Shown: positions 667 to 55,476 of the stretch, in pieces
How positions within the stretch are numbered: position 1 is the stretch's first letter
Layout: every line of letters begins with the position of its first letter
Assembly (NCBI GenBank): GCA_020161405.1
Contig: JAIUOD010000003.1
Span: 467,392 to 531,391, forward strand
Direction: 5' to 3'
Length of the DNA: 64,000 nucleotides
From: Pseudomonadota bacterium
Lineage (GTDB): Bacteria; Pseudomonadota; Alphaproteobacteria; Caulobacterales; Aquidulcibacteraceae
Position numbers and translations under genes: made by a program
The notes under the pieces: generated by a model
The model's input: the letters and a program-made list of their open reading frames with translations, nothing else
The model's database searches: none
What the model was told of the DNA's origin: nothing

Positions 667-3300
667 ATGAATAACAGCGATAAGAACGAATATAATAAAA
701 TTGCTGAAAAAAACAAAGATTCTGATTTTGAATTTCATGACCCTAATGAAGGCACATCACCTGCACGTGTTTCTGAAAATGCGCTTACAAATCAAACTGA
801 AGCTTTTACATTTGAAACTGATGAAGAAGAAACCATAAAGCAGCGCAAAAGACGTCGCAAGAAGAAGCCACAACCTTATTTATTAGTTTTCTCCTTAGTT
901 GTTGCCACTTTATATATAATTGGCGCGCTTTTATATGTTAACAATCTTCAAAATAAAGCCATTAATGAACTTGATGTCTTTACAATGATTGTAACCTTGC
1001 TTGGCCCAGCGGCATTGACTGTGCTTGCGGGATTTTTAGGCGAATCAATAAGTAAAGCTAATCGGGATTCAAGGACACTAACATTTTATGCAAAGCGAAT
1101 TTTAGAGCCTGAAAAATCACTTTCTGATGGGGTGAAATCGCGCCTGTCCAGTGTTCGTGAAGAAATTGAAAAACTAGAAATCACAATTAATGCCGCGACT
1201 AATAGATTGGCAGGTCTTGAAGAAAATATAAGAACTAAAAATCTTCAATTACGTGAAGTTACGAATGAGGCGCGTGGCGGTGCCGATCAATTAGTAAACA
1301 CTATGGAGGCCGAACGTAATCGTCTTTCATCTATCCTAAACGGCCTTGCTGAATTGAATAAATCGGCACAAAATTCGGCACGGCAAGCAACAATTGGCCT
1401 TGATGAGAAAACCGCACTTCTAACCAAAGCAGCAGAAGCCTTAACTGAAACCTCAACCAATGCAGCAAATGCCGCTGAAAATGCCGCGCAAAGACTTGAT
1501 GGCGCAGTCGATAAAGCAATTGGCGCCGCAAGTAGTTTAGACGAAGCTTCAGTCCGTGGCGAACAAGCAATTGGGCGCGCCCATGACTTAATGGTTATGG
1601 CACGTGTAAGCGCAGATAAGGCAATTGGCGGGGTTTCAAACGCGATTGATTATCTCAATGATGCAGCGAATAATGCCGCTGAAACTGCTAAGCAAGTTTC
1701 GCAATTGGTTGCCAAAGAAAATAAAAACACACTTCATGATTCTGAAGCAATGATAGAAAATGTTCGCCGCATTGCCGAAGAAAGCGCAAAACATATCGTT
1801 AGCCTAATGGAAGCTGAAGCTCAAAATGCAAGCTTAAAAGCAAAAGAAAGCGTTCAAGCATTCGAAGAAACTGCGGGATCTGTAAAAAAACTTACCGAAG
1901 AAGCAGGAAACCTTATTGCCGCGCAATTACAGGCTAATAAACATAGAATTGATAATCTTCGCCAACAAAGCTTTGAACTTAGCCAAGAGGCCGATAGTTT
2001 TGCACAAAGCCGCCTGAATTCTGCCAAGGATTTAATCGAACAATCTTCTGGCCTTCTTAATGATGCGGGTGAAAAAATTAATTCACGCTTCAACGATGTT
2101 GCAAATGTGTGCATCGAGCAAGCAAAATCAATCGAAGCAATTATTGATGGTTTAAATCATAAACTTGATAGCCTTCCACAAGAAGCGCAAAACCGCGCCA
2201 ATATGGTTGAAGCACTTTTAAATGAAACCCTTGCCAAGCTAAATGATGCCGGAAAACAGGCAGCAGAAGAAGCAAAAGGCTTGAATGAAAACTTCCAAAA
2301 CAGGCTTCAAGAATCATATTCTGCGCTTGGTGAGGTTGCGCAAAGACTTGCGGCAATCTCTGGAATTGGGATTGTGCAACCGCCAATTAGCGCGCCAATA
2401 AATAAGCCAATTCCCGAAGCGCCAAAGCCAAATATAGCGACTGAAAATAATAATGATATTATGCCTGACCCGCGTTCTGTCATTGGTCGCCCAATTCACC
2501 ATGACGCCCAAACTTCGCCAATAAGTGAAAATAAAACACAAACCAGTGATTTGAATGATGCGGAAAATAAGGCATCAATAAACAAGAATACCAGCTTTGG
2601 CTCAATATTATCGCCAAATATTCCTGTTCGTTCAACACCAATTCAAAATACGCCAATGCCTGTTGAACAAAAAATCGATAAATTAGAAGAACCGCCTAAA
2701 CCAACTTTTGTTTTGCGCGGAAGAACATCTAATATTGATGATGAAATTGTTTCAATAAACAACGATAAAAAAGATGCTTTCAAAGATGCAGTTTTAAAGC
2801 CGAATAAGCCTGAAGAACTACCAATTGAAGTAAATCTTCATTCGGATGCGCAAAATACAAATGCGCCTACAAAACCAATTTCAACAGCAATTGAAACCCA
2901 AGAAACAAATTCGCCAACAAGCATAACCTTAAACCATGACATTGATCGTGATTGGTCATGGCGCGAGGTTTTATTATCTTCAGGCGCGCAAAAGCAAACC
3001 ACTGAAGATAAAATCAAATCTGATATTTTGAATGAATTTGCCCTAGATAGAATTTTAAACGATGTGACATTGGAACGCTATCTTCAAGCCTATTCGCGCA
3101 ATGCAATGAAAGCGAAAGATTTAACTAAATCAAATCTGCCAATGCAAATAAGCGGACTACAAAGAAAGATTGCCGAAAATCTTGAATTAAGGCCATTCTT
3201 AGCAAGATTTGTTGATGAGCGCCGCGAACTTGTGAAACTTGGTCGTTTACGTGGTAATGATTTGCGTATCTATTTACTTGCCGAAGCTTCTTTGGATTGA
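667..3300 (+). CDS. tipN: TipN-like polar localisation protein, two membrane segments plus long coiled coil
   Basis: The 877-residue protein has an acidic then very basic N-terminus (RKRRRKKK near residues 60-67), two membrane segments at about 71-91 and 104-124, and a long Ala/Glu/Asn-rich coiled coil from about 155 to 560. A Pro/Asn-rich linker follows to about 770, then a compact helical C-terminus. Two N-terminal membrane helices plus a long coiled coil, and this length, match the Caulobacter polarity marker TipN, which marks the new pole after division and guides flagellum and chromosome placement. The name rests on architecture, not on a detected signature, so another coiled-coil membrane protein is possible. 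Its 3' end overlaps the convergent lipoprotein gene by 31 bases. Confidence 0.55.
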   Translation: MNNSDKNEYNKIAEKNKDSDFEFHDPNEGTSPARVSENALTNQTEAFTFETDEEETIKQRKRRRKKKPQPYLLVFSLVVATLYIIGALLYVNNLQNKAINELDVFTMIVTLLGPAALTVLAGFLGESISKANRDSRTLTFYAKRILEPEKSLSDGVKSRLSSVREEIEKLEITINAATNRLAGLEENIRTKNLQLREVTNEARGGADQLVNTMEAERNRLSSILNGLAELNKSAQNSARQATIGLDEKTALLTKAAEALTETSTNAANAAENAAQRLDGAVDKAIGAASSLDEASVRGEQAIGRAHDLMVMARVSADKAIGGVSNAIDYLNDAANNAAETAKQVSQLVAKENKNTLHDSEAMIENVRRIAEESAKHIVSLMEAEAQNASLKAKESVQAFEETAGSVKKLTEEAGNLIAAQLQANKHRIDNLRQQSFELSQEADSFAQSRLNSAKDLIEQSSGLLNDAGEKINSRFNDVANVCIEQAKSIEAIIDGLNHKLDSLPQEAQNRANMVEALLNETLAKLNDAGKQAAEEAKGLNENFQNRLQESYSALGEVAQRLAAISGIGIVQPPISAPINKPIPEAPKPNIATENNNDIMPDPRSVIGRPIHHDAQTSPISENKTQTSDLNDAENKASINKNTSFGSILSPNIPVRSTPIQNTPMPVEQKIDKLEEPPKPTFVLRGRTSNIDDEIVSINNDKKDAFKDAVLKPNKPEELPIEVNLHSDAQNTNAPTKPISTAIETQETNSPTSITLNHDIDRDWSWREVLLSSGAQKQTTEDKIKSDILNEFALDRILNDVTLERYLQAYSRNAMKAKDLTKSNLPMQISGLQRKIAENLELRPFLARFVDERRELVKLGRLRGNDLRIYLLAEASLD

Positions 3301-41384: not shown

Positions 41385-41410
41385 AAAATGTTAGCATTTG
41401 TTAGCATTTT
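41385..41410. repeat. 10-bp phased tandem motif (locus 1)
   Basis: TGTTAGCATT occurs twice with 10-bp spacing (41389-41398, 41399-41408), flanked by A and T runs. Each half is close to an AATG...CATT palindrome. Three related pairs occur at 52.7 kb. The rest of 41411-41554 holds two small hairpins (GGTG/CACC near 41470 and TTCCCAA/TTGGGAA at 41492-41508) and no gene. Confidence 0.7.
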
Positions 41411-52260: not shown

Positions 52261-52497
52261 TTAGGCTTGGGTTTTATCTTTATTTACCGATGCGTCAATT
52301 GTCTTTTCATCATTTAAGCGCGGCGCATCACTTGGCGCTTTTGGTTCATCCTCAAGACCTTTTTTAAAGCCTTTAATGCCTTGCGCAAAATCAGTCATAA
52401 TGCCTGATAATTTTCCCCTTCCGCCAAAAAGAACAACCACAACAACCAAAATCAACAATAATTGCATCAAGCCAGGTGCGTGCATAAATGCCTCCAA
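52261..52497 (-). CDS. tatA: Sec-independent protein translocase TatA
   Basis: The 78-residue protein has one membrane helix ([17 protein letters not shown]), the hinge [23 protein letters not shown] and a polar tail. TatA forms the pore that moves folded proteins. GGAGG precedes the ATG. In most alphaproteobacteria it follows scpB directly; here about 2.2 kb of other DNA lies between. Confidence 0.94.
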
Positions 52498-52652
52498 AAA
52501 ACACTTTTAAAATAACTTTATGACTTTAGACCATAATTTTTCCAACACAAAGCGATTTTGACGGTTCATTAAAGATTTTTTATTTTGAATCTTATAATTT
52601 CTCGGCTGTCATTGCGCGTTCATTGCGCGGGCTTGGTTGATTATTCTTCGAG

Positions 52653-52673
52653 ATCGCGCAACAAGTGCGCGAT
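52653..52673. repeat. GC-rich hairpin in A+T-rich context
   Basis: A perfect 8-bp stem with a 5-base loop. Its outer flanks (CGAG before, GACATGG after) resemble short dispersed palindromes common in alphaproteobacterial intergenic DNA. No T tract follows. Confidence 0.5.
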
Positions 52674-52704
52674 GACATGGTTTTTATAATTTTCGCACTC
52701 CCTT

Positions 52705-52797
52705 AAAATGTTGACATTTGTTGACATTTTTTACCCTCAAAAATGTTATCAATTGTAATCATTCCCCTTTAAAATGTTAGGAAATGTTAGCAATTTG
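52705..52797. repeat. Three 10-bp phased tandem motif pairs (locus 2)
   Basis: Three pairs of 10-bp units follow one another: TGTTGACATT twice (52709-52728), TGTTATCAAT-TGTAATCATT (from 52744) and TGTTAGGAAA-TGTTAGCAAT (from 52774). Each is preceded by AAAA. They match the pair at 41389-41408. The 10-bp spacing places each pair on the same face of the helix. Confidence 0.65.
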
Positions 52798-52970
52798 GGA
52801 AAACCTGATTGCCAACAATGATTTTATTATAAAGATAAAGCATAAGGCGTGGATAGGCCTGATTTACAACTTATCACTATAAAACAATGCGCACAAACCT
52901 ATGGTATTTTTGTAGTTTTCGATATTAAAAAGACACCACAGTAAGTGAGTTTATATGGAAATTATAAAAA

Positions 52971-53810
52971 TCACATGCATTGAATTGGTATTGAAATATC
53001 ACCCTTAGTTTGCGTCATAATTTTATCAAAAAACTTTTTTATTTCAGGGTCAATTGGATTATTTTTGTAGGATTTCGCAAAACACCATAATAAACCGATG
53101 CGTGTTTTATCATGAAATTTATCATCTTCTCTAATTGTGAATTGAACTTCTTTCTTTAAGTCCCAATATGCTTTTCCCATGCCTCCCTCAAGAGTAGCGT
53201 AGGGATTATCACCGACCATCACTTGACGAACATATAAATCATAAGCCATTTTTTCTTCTTCCAAACCTCCACCATAATTCGGGCTAGGAACAACATCTAT
53301 AGAATAAATAAATTGCAGTATTTCAGGGAAATACAAATCCCTAGCAACATCAATTAATCCCTTGTTATTTGACTGATTTAAAAATGATGTTTTTGGCTGT
53401 ATATTAAAACAAACAAGTGCAGGTGAAATTAAAACATAGGTATCATAATAAAATGGCCTTACTAATTCGGAATCAGGCTTCTCTTTCAAGCCTTTTTCAA
53501 TCAAATTAGATAATCTTTTGTAAGCTTCTTTCTCCTTTGCACTTGAAGATGGTGAATTTGGATTACAATCATAAAGATATTCAACGCTGTGGTCTTTAAT
53601 TAAATTAAGATAGTAATTTATATCTATAAGACACTTCAAAATGCCATCAGATTCACGCGCGCGCCCCGAACAAGACCCAAAATTTTTATCTTTTTCAATA
53701 TGAATAATCGCTTTGTTCAAAGATTTTCTCGATAAATCGCCATTAACTCCCCCTGAAATGGAAGCACAGCCAGACAATGTTAAGATGAAAATTAAAACAA
53801 ATTTGTTCAT
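52971..53810 (-). CDS. Putative lipoprotein of unknown function
   Basis: The 279-residue protein has a short signal peptide with lipobox LSGC (Cys15). Six more cysteines are spread through the chain (GSCSG, LKCLI, YDCNPN, LVCFN, LWCFA, IQCM), fitting a disulphide-bonded periplasmic domain. No family is recognised. The ribosome binding site GAGGAATGAG lies at the end of the gene just upstream, 6 bases away, so the two are co-expressed. The pair interrupts the usual scpB-tatA junction. Confidence 0.65.
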   Translation of the reverse strand: MNKFVLIFILTLSGCASISGGVNGDLSRKSLNKAIIHIEKDKNFGSCSGRARESDGILKCLIDINYYLNLIKDHSVEYLYDCNPNSPSSSAKEKEAYKRLSNLIEKGLKEKPDSELVRPFYYDTYVLISPALVCFNIQPKTSFLNQSNNKGLIDVARDLYFPEILQFIYSIDVVPSPNYGGGLEEEKMAYDLYVRQVMVGDNPYATLEGGMGKAYWDLKKEVQFTIREDDKFHDKTRIGLLWCFAKSYKNNPIDPEIKKFFDKIMTQTKGDISIPIQCM

Positions 53811-53816
53811 AATTTC

Positions 53817-54644
53817 TCATTCCTCATAAGTATTCCTTAATTTCCAAATCATCCAAATTGGCCGACTTGGATCTTCAATTATTGACTGACTTATTTCAGG
53901 TTCCCACATTTTATTATACTTTATTGCATTATCTTCTTTAGTGTAACCAGGTAGGGTATATGTTCTTGTTATAAAGCCGCATGTATCAATAAAATAAGCT
54001 AAATAATTGGAACCTCCCTGCGAAGGATAATATACCGCCTTCCCAATTTCATTTTGAAAGATGCCCAATTCTTTTTTGTCCTTGTCAAAAGCACTAATCC
54101 TCATTGGAGAATTTGGGTCATCGCCGCCATTTGGGATTTCATCTGATACTATTTTGCGAATTATTTTTTTTGACATCTCTCTTGAGTTTTGGCGCATTAT
54201 TTCGTTTTTTTTATAGAGATATGGTGTTCGTGCAATATATTTGCCGATTTCATAACCTATATTTCCACCAGTATCCGCATCTAAATCCACGGCCCCAATT
54301 AATAAATTAGAACCTATACATTTGCGTTGCTTATCTGAAAGCATTATTTCACTAGTTTTTATACGCTTCTCTAGTGTCGTATTTGTACAATCATCAAATA
54401 ATTTCTTTGTATTTAATATTGCTTCATGTTTTATTTGATTAACTGAATCTTCAAAGAGAGACCCTGGATACCCATTGTTTAAAAAGCAGGTTTTCTTATA
54501 TTTTTCCTCATGCATCTTGTCTTTATAAATCATGCTATTAAAAACTTTATAGCCATAACCATGCTTCTCTTTCTCGCAATGAGTAAGAATAATAGAAGAT
54601 ATAAATAATATTATGATTGAAGCAATAATTTTGAATTGTGCCAT
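53817..54644 (-). CDS. Putative exported protein of unknown function
   Basis: From ATG 54644 the protein has 275 residues with a hydrophobic N-terminal segment ending IILTHC; the histidine before Cys23 is unusual for a lipobox, so lipidation is uncertain. The body is rich in Lys, Asn and Tyr and holds further cysteines (KKTCFLNN, DDCTN, RKCIG, DTCGF). A segment LIGAVDLDADTGGNIGYEIGKYIA looks membrane-like or surface-inserting. No family is recognised. First gene of the two-gene insert; an upstream in-frame start at 54677 is less likely. Confidence 0.6.
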   Translation of the reverse strand: MAQFKIIASIIILFISSIILTHCEKEKHGYGYKVFNSMIYKDKMHEEKYKKTCFLNNGYPGSLFEDSVNQIKHEAILNTKKLFDDCTNTTLEKRIKTSEIMLSDKQRKCIGSNLLIGAVDLDADTGGNIGYEIGKYIARTPYLYKKNEIMRQNSREMSKKIIRKIVSDEIPNGGDDPNSPMRISAFDKDKKELGIFQNEIGKAVYYPSQGGSNYLAYFIDTCGFITRTYTLPGYTKEDNAIKYNKMWEPEISQSIIEDPSRPIWMIWKLRNTYEE

Positions 54645-54735
54645 ATATCTTAGTCTAAATACATAATATAAAACCAATAATTGATTTTATATACTAACCT
54701 AAATTTATGACTATAGATAATATTTGTAATTAACA

Positions 54736-55476
54736 CTATTCAAAAAAATCCTGAACGAAATCGCTTTCGTTAGTTTCGAAAGGATTTTCTATGATTTCGT
54801 CGTCATTTTGGATGTTTTGGCTTGGGCGGGGGACTTCGAAATCTTTTGGTAGATTTGCACTTAATATGCCTTGGGCTTGAAGTTCGGTTTTGCCCGGTAA
54901 ATCATCAAGACCTGAAAGATTAAAATGCGCCAAAAATTCATTTGTTGTTCGATACGTAAGGGGTTTTCCGGGGCTTCTGCGTCTTGCGCCGGGGCGAACC
55001 CATTTGATTTCCATCAATAAATCCAATGTTCCGCGCGATAAAGAAACGCCGCGTATTTCCTCAATTTCGGCGCGTGTGCATGGTTGGTGATAGGCAATGA
55101 TTGCCAAAGTTTCCAATGCAGCACGCGATAATTTTCGTGGCTCTTCCTTATGTTCTTCTAAAATGGGTGCAAGGTCAAAAGCAGTTTGAAAGCGCCAACC
55201 ACCGCCAGTTTCAATCAATTGCACCCCACGCCCAACATAATGGCGTTTAAGGCGCGCAAGGGCCGAACCAATATCAACCCCCTCACCCAATCTTGCCGCC
55301 AAATCCTGGGCACGTAATGGGATTGGGGAAGCGAATAATAAAGCTTCTATTTGTCTTTCTACTTGGTCAATATTTTTTGCCAAAAATTCGGCAGTATCAA
55401 CCAAATCAAGTTTTTGACGTGCCAAATCCTTTATGGCGCGGGCAATTTCTTGTTCTGTATTCGGTTCATCACTCAT
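54736..55476 (-). CDS. scpB: Segregation and condensation protein B
   Basis: The 246-residue protein has two winged helices typical of ScpB: VERQIEALLFASPIPLRAQDLA and the LETLAIIAYHQPCTRAEIEEIRGV core. It binds ScpA and SMC to compact the chromosome. Its ATG overlaps the scpA stop as ATGA. The acidic C-terminal tail extends about 50 residues beyond the folded part. Confidence 0.95.
   Translation of the reverse strand: MSDEPNTEQEIARAIKDLARQKLDLVDTAEFLAKNIDQVERQIEALLFASPIPLRAQDLAARLGEGVDIGSALARLKRHYVGRGVQLIETGGGWRFQTAFDLAPILEEHKEEPRKLSRAALETLAIIAYHQPCTRAEIEEIRGVSLSRGTLDLLMEIKWVRPGARRRSPGKPLTYRTTNEFLAHFNLSGLDDLPGKTELQAQGILSANLPKDFEVPRPSQNIQNDDEIIENPFETNESDFVQDFFE

Follow-up and report, generated by a model that had tools for sequence, protein, structure and literature searches.

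A two-gene, AT-rich insertion between scpB and tatA of an alphaproteobacterium, likely of foreign origin

How do two genes of no recognised family come to lie between scpB and tatA, and what might they do? In the 64,000-nucleotide stretch of an alphaproteobacterial genome analysed here (the window), the minus strand reads nagZ-scpA-scpB-g2-g1-tatA-tatB-tatC. The original prediction took the order nagZ-scpA-scpB-tatA-tatB-tatC to be usually contiguous, and saw in the intervening pair the best candidate in the window for an undescribed function. Among the flanking genes, scpB, tatB, tatC and nagZ pass curated family cut-offs, and scpA has only matches to models that score far below their cut-offs. 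The TatA/E matches of tatA are all below cut-off (52.5 bits vs 53.9 for TIGR01411), so that its name leans also on gene position; its ATG at 52485, which follows GGAGG, is a more likely start than the TTG at 52497.

54736–55476, minus strand: scpB, neighbouring gene, curated family cut-off passed
52261–52485, minus strand: tatA, neighbouring gene, likely ATG start at 52485

ScpB is present in 57 of 60 relatives, and the junction was surveyed in the best 29 of the loci of these 57. In 25 of the 29, scpB and tatA lie on the same strand, 14–297 bp apart, and in the four other genomes of the genus the gaps are 106, 106, 108 and 297 bp. In the remaining four loci (L006, L018, L024, L028) tatA is absent from the fetched flank of scpB, and it was not found either in a 7-kb stretch (L038) of G010, one of those four genomes. 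Given these four loci, the scpB-tatA order is common, not universal, and the contiguity originally assumed holds at this junction to that extent. Our literature searches on scpA, scpB, tatA and nagZ together, or on tatABC with scpB in Caulobacter, returned nothing. In the closest relative, G003, whose ScpB and TatA are 96% and 97% identical to those of the window, 108 bp separate the two genes, compared with 2.25 kb here; an insert of about 2.2 kb with two genes in a usually tight junction is thus borne out. That it entered in the lineage of this genome, relative to G003, is nearly certain.

52583–54734: inserted DNA, about 2,152 bp, without counterpart in G003 (alignment of junction L033)
52522–52582: conserved tatA-proximal upstream DNA, outside the insert, 55 of 61 positions identical to G003
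52508–52538, plus strand: imperfect 31-bp direct repeat, left copy, near insert end
54695–54725, plus strand: imperfect 31-bp direct repeat, right copy, near insert end

In the alignment, homology to G003 is kept on the tatA side up to about 52582 and is back near 54735, where scpB ends, or possibly about 20 bp earlier, the boundary on the scpB side being precise to about 20 bp. The extent first proposed, 52498–54735, therefore needs correction: the insert is real, but its DNA starts near 52583, as 52522–52582 aligns to G003. The earlier claim that the insert separates tatA from its upstream promoter context is likewise not supported. Since the roughly 61 bp upstream of tatA are 90% conserved with G003, tatA probably keeps its own predicted promoter; positions 52475–52499 are identical to G003 as well.

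The composition of the insert stands out, with a GC content of 32.0% against about 41–42% in the flanks. An equally AT-rich stretch of insert length (within 0.5 points) occurs at 7 of 1,237 window positions, each of them on the insert. The two copies of the direct repeat match at 24 of 31 positions, a value reached in none of 100 shuffles of both end regions (mean 18.4). They lie near, not exactly at, the boundaries; hence they are not a clean target-site duplication, and the insertion route is not shown. Nor is the vehicle shown, since neither the ORF list nor Pfam gave an integrase, transposase, resolvase or phage gene in the insert, which holds g1, g2, short overlapping antisense ORFs of 51 and 68 aa, and nothing else. 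Composition and the clean empty site nevertheless make lateral acquisition from a foreign source likely, with donor and vehicle unseen.

53817–54644, minus strand: g2 (protein P0002), 275 aa, five Cys, N-terminal hydrophobic helix, lipobox-like LTHC at residue 23
52971–53810, minus strand: g1 (protein P0001), 279 aa, lipoprotein signal, lipobox LSGC (Cys15), six further Cys

Both genes are transcribed in the direction of scpB and tatA. The ATG of g1 stands 6 bp past the g2 stop, with GAGGAA just upstream, overlapping the g2 end; a longer form of g2, from a TTG at 54677, is possible. A bacterial lipoprotein carries an N-terminal signal with L-[AS]-[GA]-C. The translated N-terminus of g1, MNKFVLIFILTLSGCAS, with the lipobox stretch MNKFVLIFILTLSGC, conforms to this rule, so that g1 resembles the lipoproteins processed by Lgt and LspA in having a signal that ends in LSGC; unlike known lipoproteins, its mature part fits no Pfam or NCBIfam lipoprotein family. 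g2 has ILTHC, with His at −1, and His before Cys is at odds with the usual lipobox. The prediction of cysteine-containing, exported or anchored proteins agrees with the lipobox of g1 and with the N-terminal helix and non-canonical LTHC of g2. AlphaFold2 without alignment returned a mean pLDDT of 32.5 and 33.2 for the two proteins, a level too low for any claim on the fold; the low-confidence model of g2 has a helix at residues 2–33. The predicted envelope location of both proteins follows from their N-terminal signals, and a putative joint role from their coupling.

Relatives of the pair were sought in samples of related, order-level and class-level genomes, which overlap. Neither protein has a relative in the 60 related genomes, which rejects the pair as a conserved neighbour of scpB across the order and answers the synteny check that had been proposed. 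P0001 gave nothing in the 384 other genomes of the 385 at class level, and a single match among 397 other order-level genomes (G757, E 0.009), which we regard as chance: it covers 77 residues, and its frame looks by eye like a TonB-dependent receptor. P0002 had no relative in the 397 other order-level genomes and one weak match among the 384 other class-level genomes (G090, E 0.007), also put down to chance, as it contains an internal stop and tblastn did not reproduce it. No relatives of either gene were found in viral contigs (IMG/VR pattern scans), in 50,697 phage records or in plasmids. For P0002 only, an 84,980-genome collection was scanned with exact peptide patterns, which reach close relatives only, and had no match. 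Pfam and NCBIfam offer no credible family for either protein; PHROGs (best E 0.32) and the PADLOC anti-phage defence models have no match, and the PDB holds no sequence relative (best E 0.73 and 0.51). Weak matches to TBD, Lig_chan-Glu_bd, Peptidase_S77, an unnamed PHROG, a spanin, HTRA1 and a ligase interacting factor (E 0.03–0.9) were dismissed as chance. The absence of a recognised family, including any known lipoprotein family, is thereby upheld; of the proposed structure and homology check, the homology part found no relative or family and the single-sequence folds were uninformative. As to the proposed check of co-occurrence, no genome was seen to carry the pair, or either gene, a second time.

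Between g1 and tatA the insert is free of genes and, as predicted, rich in repeats.

52583–52970: gene-free stretch, 388 bp, repeat-rich, with two dispersed repeats
52607–52677: dispersed palindrome TGTCATTGCGCG...CGCGATGACA, a hairpin between g1 and tatA, arms 78% complementary
52700–52796: tandem-decamer array (units 52705–52730, 52740–52765 and 52771–52796), degenerate copy of a genus-wide interspersed element
52823–52857: TTTTATTATAAAGATAAAGCATAAGGCGTGGATAG, similar to the final conserved block in the consensus of the interspersed element (judged by eye, unscored)

Elsewhere in the genome the palindrome recurs at three places (four rows, 73–79% similar), and minus-strand RNA of the whole gene-free stretch folds with a z of −3.8. 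Four terminator-like sites were found vs 1.6 expected; the promoter scan, with 12 sites vs 12.9 expected, is uninformative. Rfam gave nothing at gathering score, and its three sub-gathering matches, to animal miRNA or lncRNA models, were rejected.

The decamer element was followed with the motif AATGNNNNCATTTGNNNNCATTTT at no more than one mismatch, with the backward sequence as control. The motif occurs 15 times in this genome, 18 times in G002, six times each in G004 and G003 and three times in G001. Of these rows, three of G001 and two of G003 do not resemble the motif, and a near-palindromic site may count twice, once per strand. Five of 56 other genomes have one each, and the control occurs once in this genome and not in the other 60. 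The two unit centres are identical within a site in 33 of 48 genus rows vs 7.7 expected by shuffling, and in 10 of 15 sites of this genome vs 2.5 expected, an excess not to be read as a probability because the copies are related. At one orthologous intergenic site this genome has a single decamer unit (L052) where G003 has two (L099); given this exact 10-bp difference, tandem gain or loss of a unit may account for centres that match.

The element also has a longer form, about 230 bp in length and with several conserved blocks; a 241-bp query from G002 gave 27 matches in G002, 24 in G004 and two here, and none in G001 or G003. Two sister species have about 25 matches each, and some of these adjoin the same genes in both. 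Its consensus, built from 18 copies, consists of the blocks TTTGTAACAAT, ATTATTAATCAATT, TGTTGACATTTGTTGACATT and CTGACATTTCCTGACATT with variable spacers (window 41387–41410 and 52700–52796; L118–L147). Three copy pairs flank the same genes in G002 and G004; their identity is 84–89% where the other 16 rows are conserved and 46–56% in the remaining columns, in an alignment built with all rows, which favours such a contrast. Like REP-like or MITE-like dispersed repeats, the palindrome and the decamer element occur at several intergenic places. Unlike them, the decamer element consists of conserved blocks with variable spacers and unit centres, is hardly found outside the genus and matches no named family. 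Exact matches were seen four times in contigs of Hyphomonadaceae bacterium UBA1933 and once, presumably by chance, in a Fructobacillus contig, and the genus probably belongs to the Hyphomonadaceae. The exact decamer pair has no copy in viral contigs; nothing pertinent was found in the literature on Hyphomonadaceae and intergenic or extragenic repeats, and nothing at all on UBA1933.

Several genes elsewhere contain the repeats or lie near them. A stand-alone terminase small-subunit gene of this genome (L041:1361–1693; Terminase_2, E 8.6e-8) has one decamer pair inside its coding sequence; the view that the units are pieces of such genes was not adopted, as most sampled copies look intergenic by ORF inspection and the number of units varies. 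A DUF559 endonuclease-like gene (L040:1803–2228, minus strand) adjoins palindromes near a decamer array, and by eye a similar gene lies near the copy in L049. In L056 the element is adjoined by a gene for an apparently exported protein without Pfam family (727–1416, minus strand), with atpD, identified by eye, on the other side.

What, then, is the origin of g1 and g2? That they are not genes at all is extremely improbable. All eight neighbours scored do have a better codon fit, but the lengths of g1 and g2 are beyond chance: the longest stop-free run of the insert has 289 codons, as compared with 90 on average and 185 at most in 500 Markov-1 sequences, and the ribosome-binding site of g1, the coupling and the lipobox point the same way. 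An ancestral pair, lost from the scp-tat cluster in the relatives, is also very improbable. The loci without tatA beside scpB suggest that the junction is not fixed, but with tight gaps in the other four genus genomes and neither gene in any of 60 relatives, it would need several independent precise losses.

Two other sources deserve more weight. Local birth, or fast divergence, of native genes within a non-coding, repeat-rich spacer would agree with the missing donor and with a spacer that also contains repeats native to the genome and genus, and an AT-rich composition by itself may stem from weakly constrained native DNA, a point against lateral transfer. At 279 and 275 aa, however, the two full-length ORFs, with their coupled start and good lipobox, are long for de novo genes, and G003, close as it is, has no remnant of either, which leaves this source rather improbable. 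A residue of a phage or integrative element, with g1 and g2 as cargo of the superinfection-exclusion or immunity kind, is somewhat unlikely, although it comes closer: the pair is small, AT-rich, envelope-directed and orphan, an imperfect direct repeat lies near the ends, and ORFans in atypical clusters are, according to PMC2718499, often viral or plasmid in origin. Against it stand the phage, IMG/VR, PHROGs and PADLOC searches, and the figure, from PMC1559721, of viral homologues for only 2.8% of ORFans. On the whole, the best reading, and a fairly probable one, is that an ORFan bicistron encoding two envelope-anchored proteins was acquired laterally.

In such an acquisition, a short AT-rich segment would have entered between scpB and tatA after the split from the closest relative, presumably as a piece of foreign DNA, such as part of a mobile element not yet sampled, rather than by local gene birth. 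The two genes would act as a translationally coupled bicistron, in which g2 is translated first, its N-terminal helix anchoring it in the inner membrane, and g1 follows from the ribosome-binding site inside the g2 end. g1 would leave through Sec, receive a lipid at Cys15 and probably end up in the outer membrane. The cysteine-bearing domains of both proteins would face the periplasm, and tatA would keep its expression from its own conserved upstream region. We infer from sequence an envelope role, most likely a dispensable, strain-specific one such as surface protection, immunity or exclusion.

The claim to an undescribed function is weakened, since g1 and g2 resemble ordinary AT-rich ORFans, a common kind, and absence of relatives is no evidence of new function. 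As published, 96% of 8,428 ORFans have atypical composition (PMC2718499), and orphan genes of this sort are an ordinary component of bacterial genomes (PMC2718499, PMC1559721). Like the ORFan gene clusters of Cortez, Forterre and Gribaldo 2009 (PMC2718499), g1 and g2 are lineage-specific, atypical in composition, without found relatives and without identifiable function; unlike those clusters, which have at least four atypical genes, there are two genes here and no mobile-element gene. That the pair is an undescribed two-protein envelope system, for example of exclusion or immunity, beside a putative chromosome-wide binding site in the form of the decamer element, is doubtful indeed; in that case the 10-bp units, which vary in concert at each site and stay at corresponding places in different species, would indicate such a binding site.

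We thus describe a clean gene gain inside a housekeeping cluster, where chromosome segregation stands beside protein export, with a near-identical empty site in a sister genome. In addition, the genus-wide element with its conserved blocks, reached through the repeats of the insert, may merit separate study.
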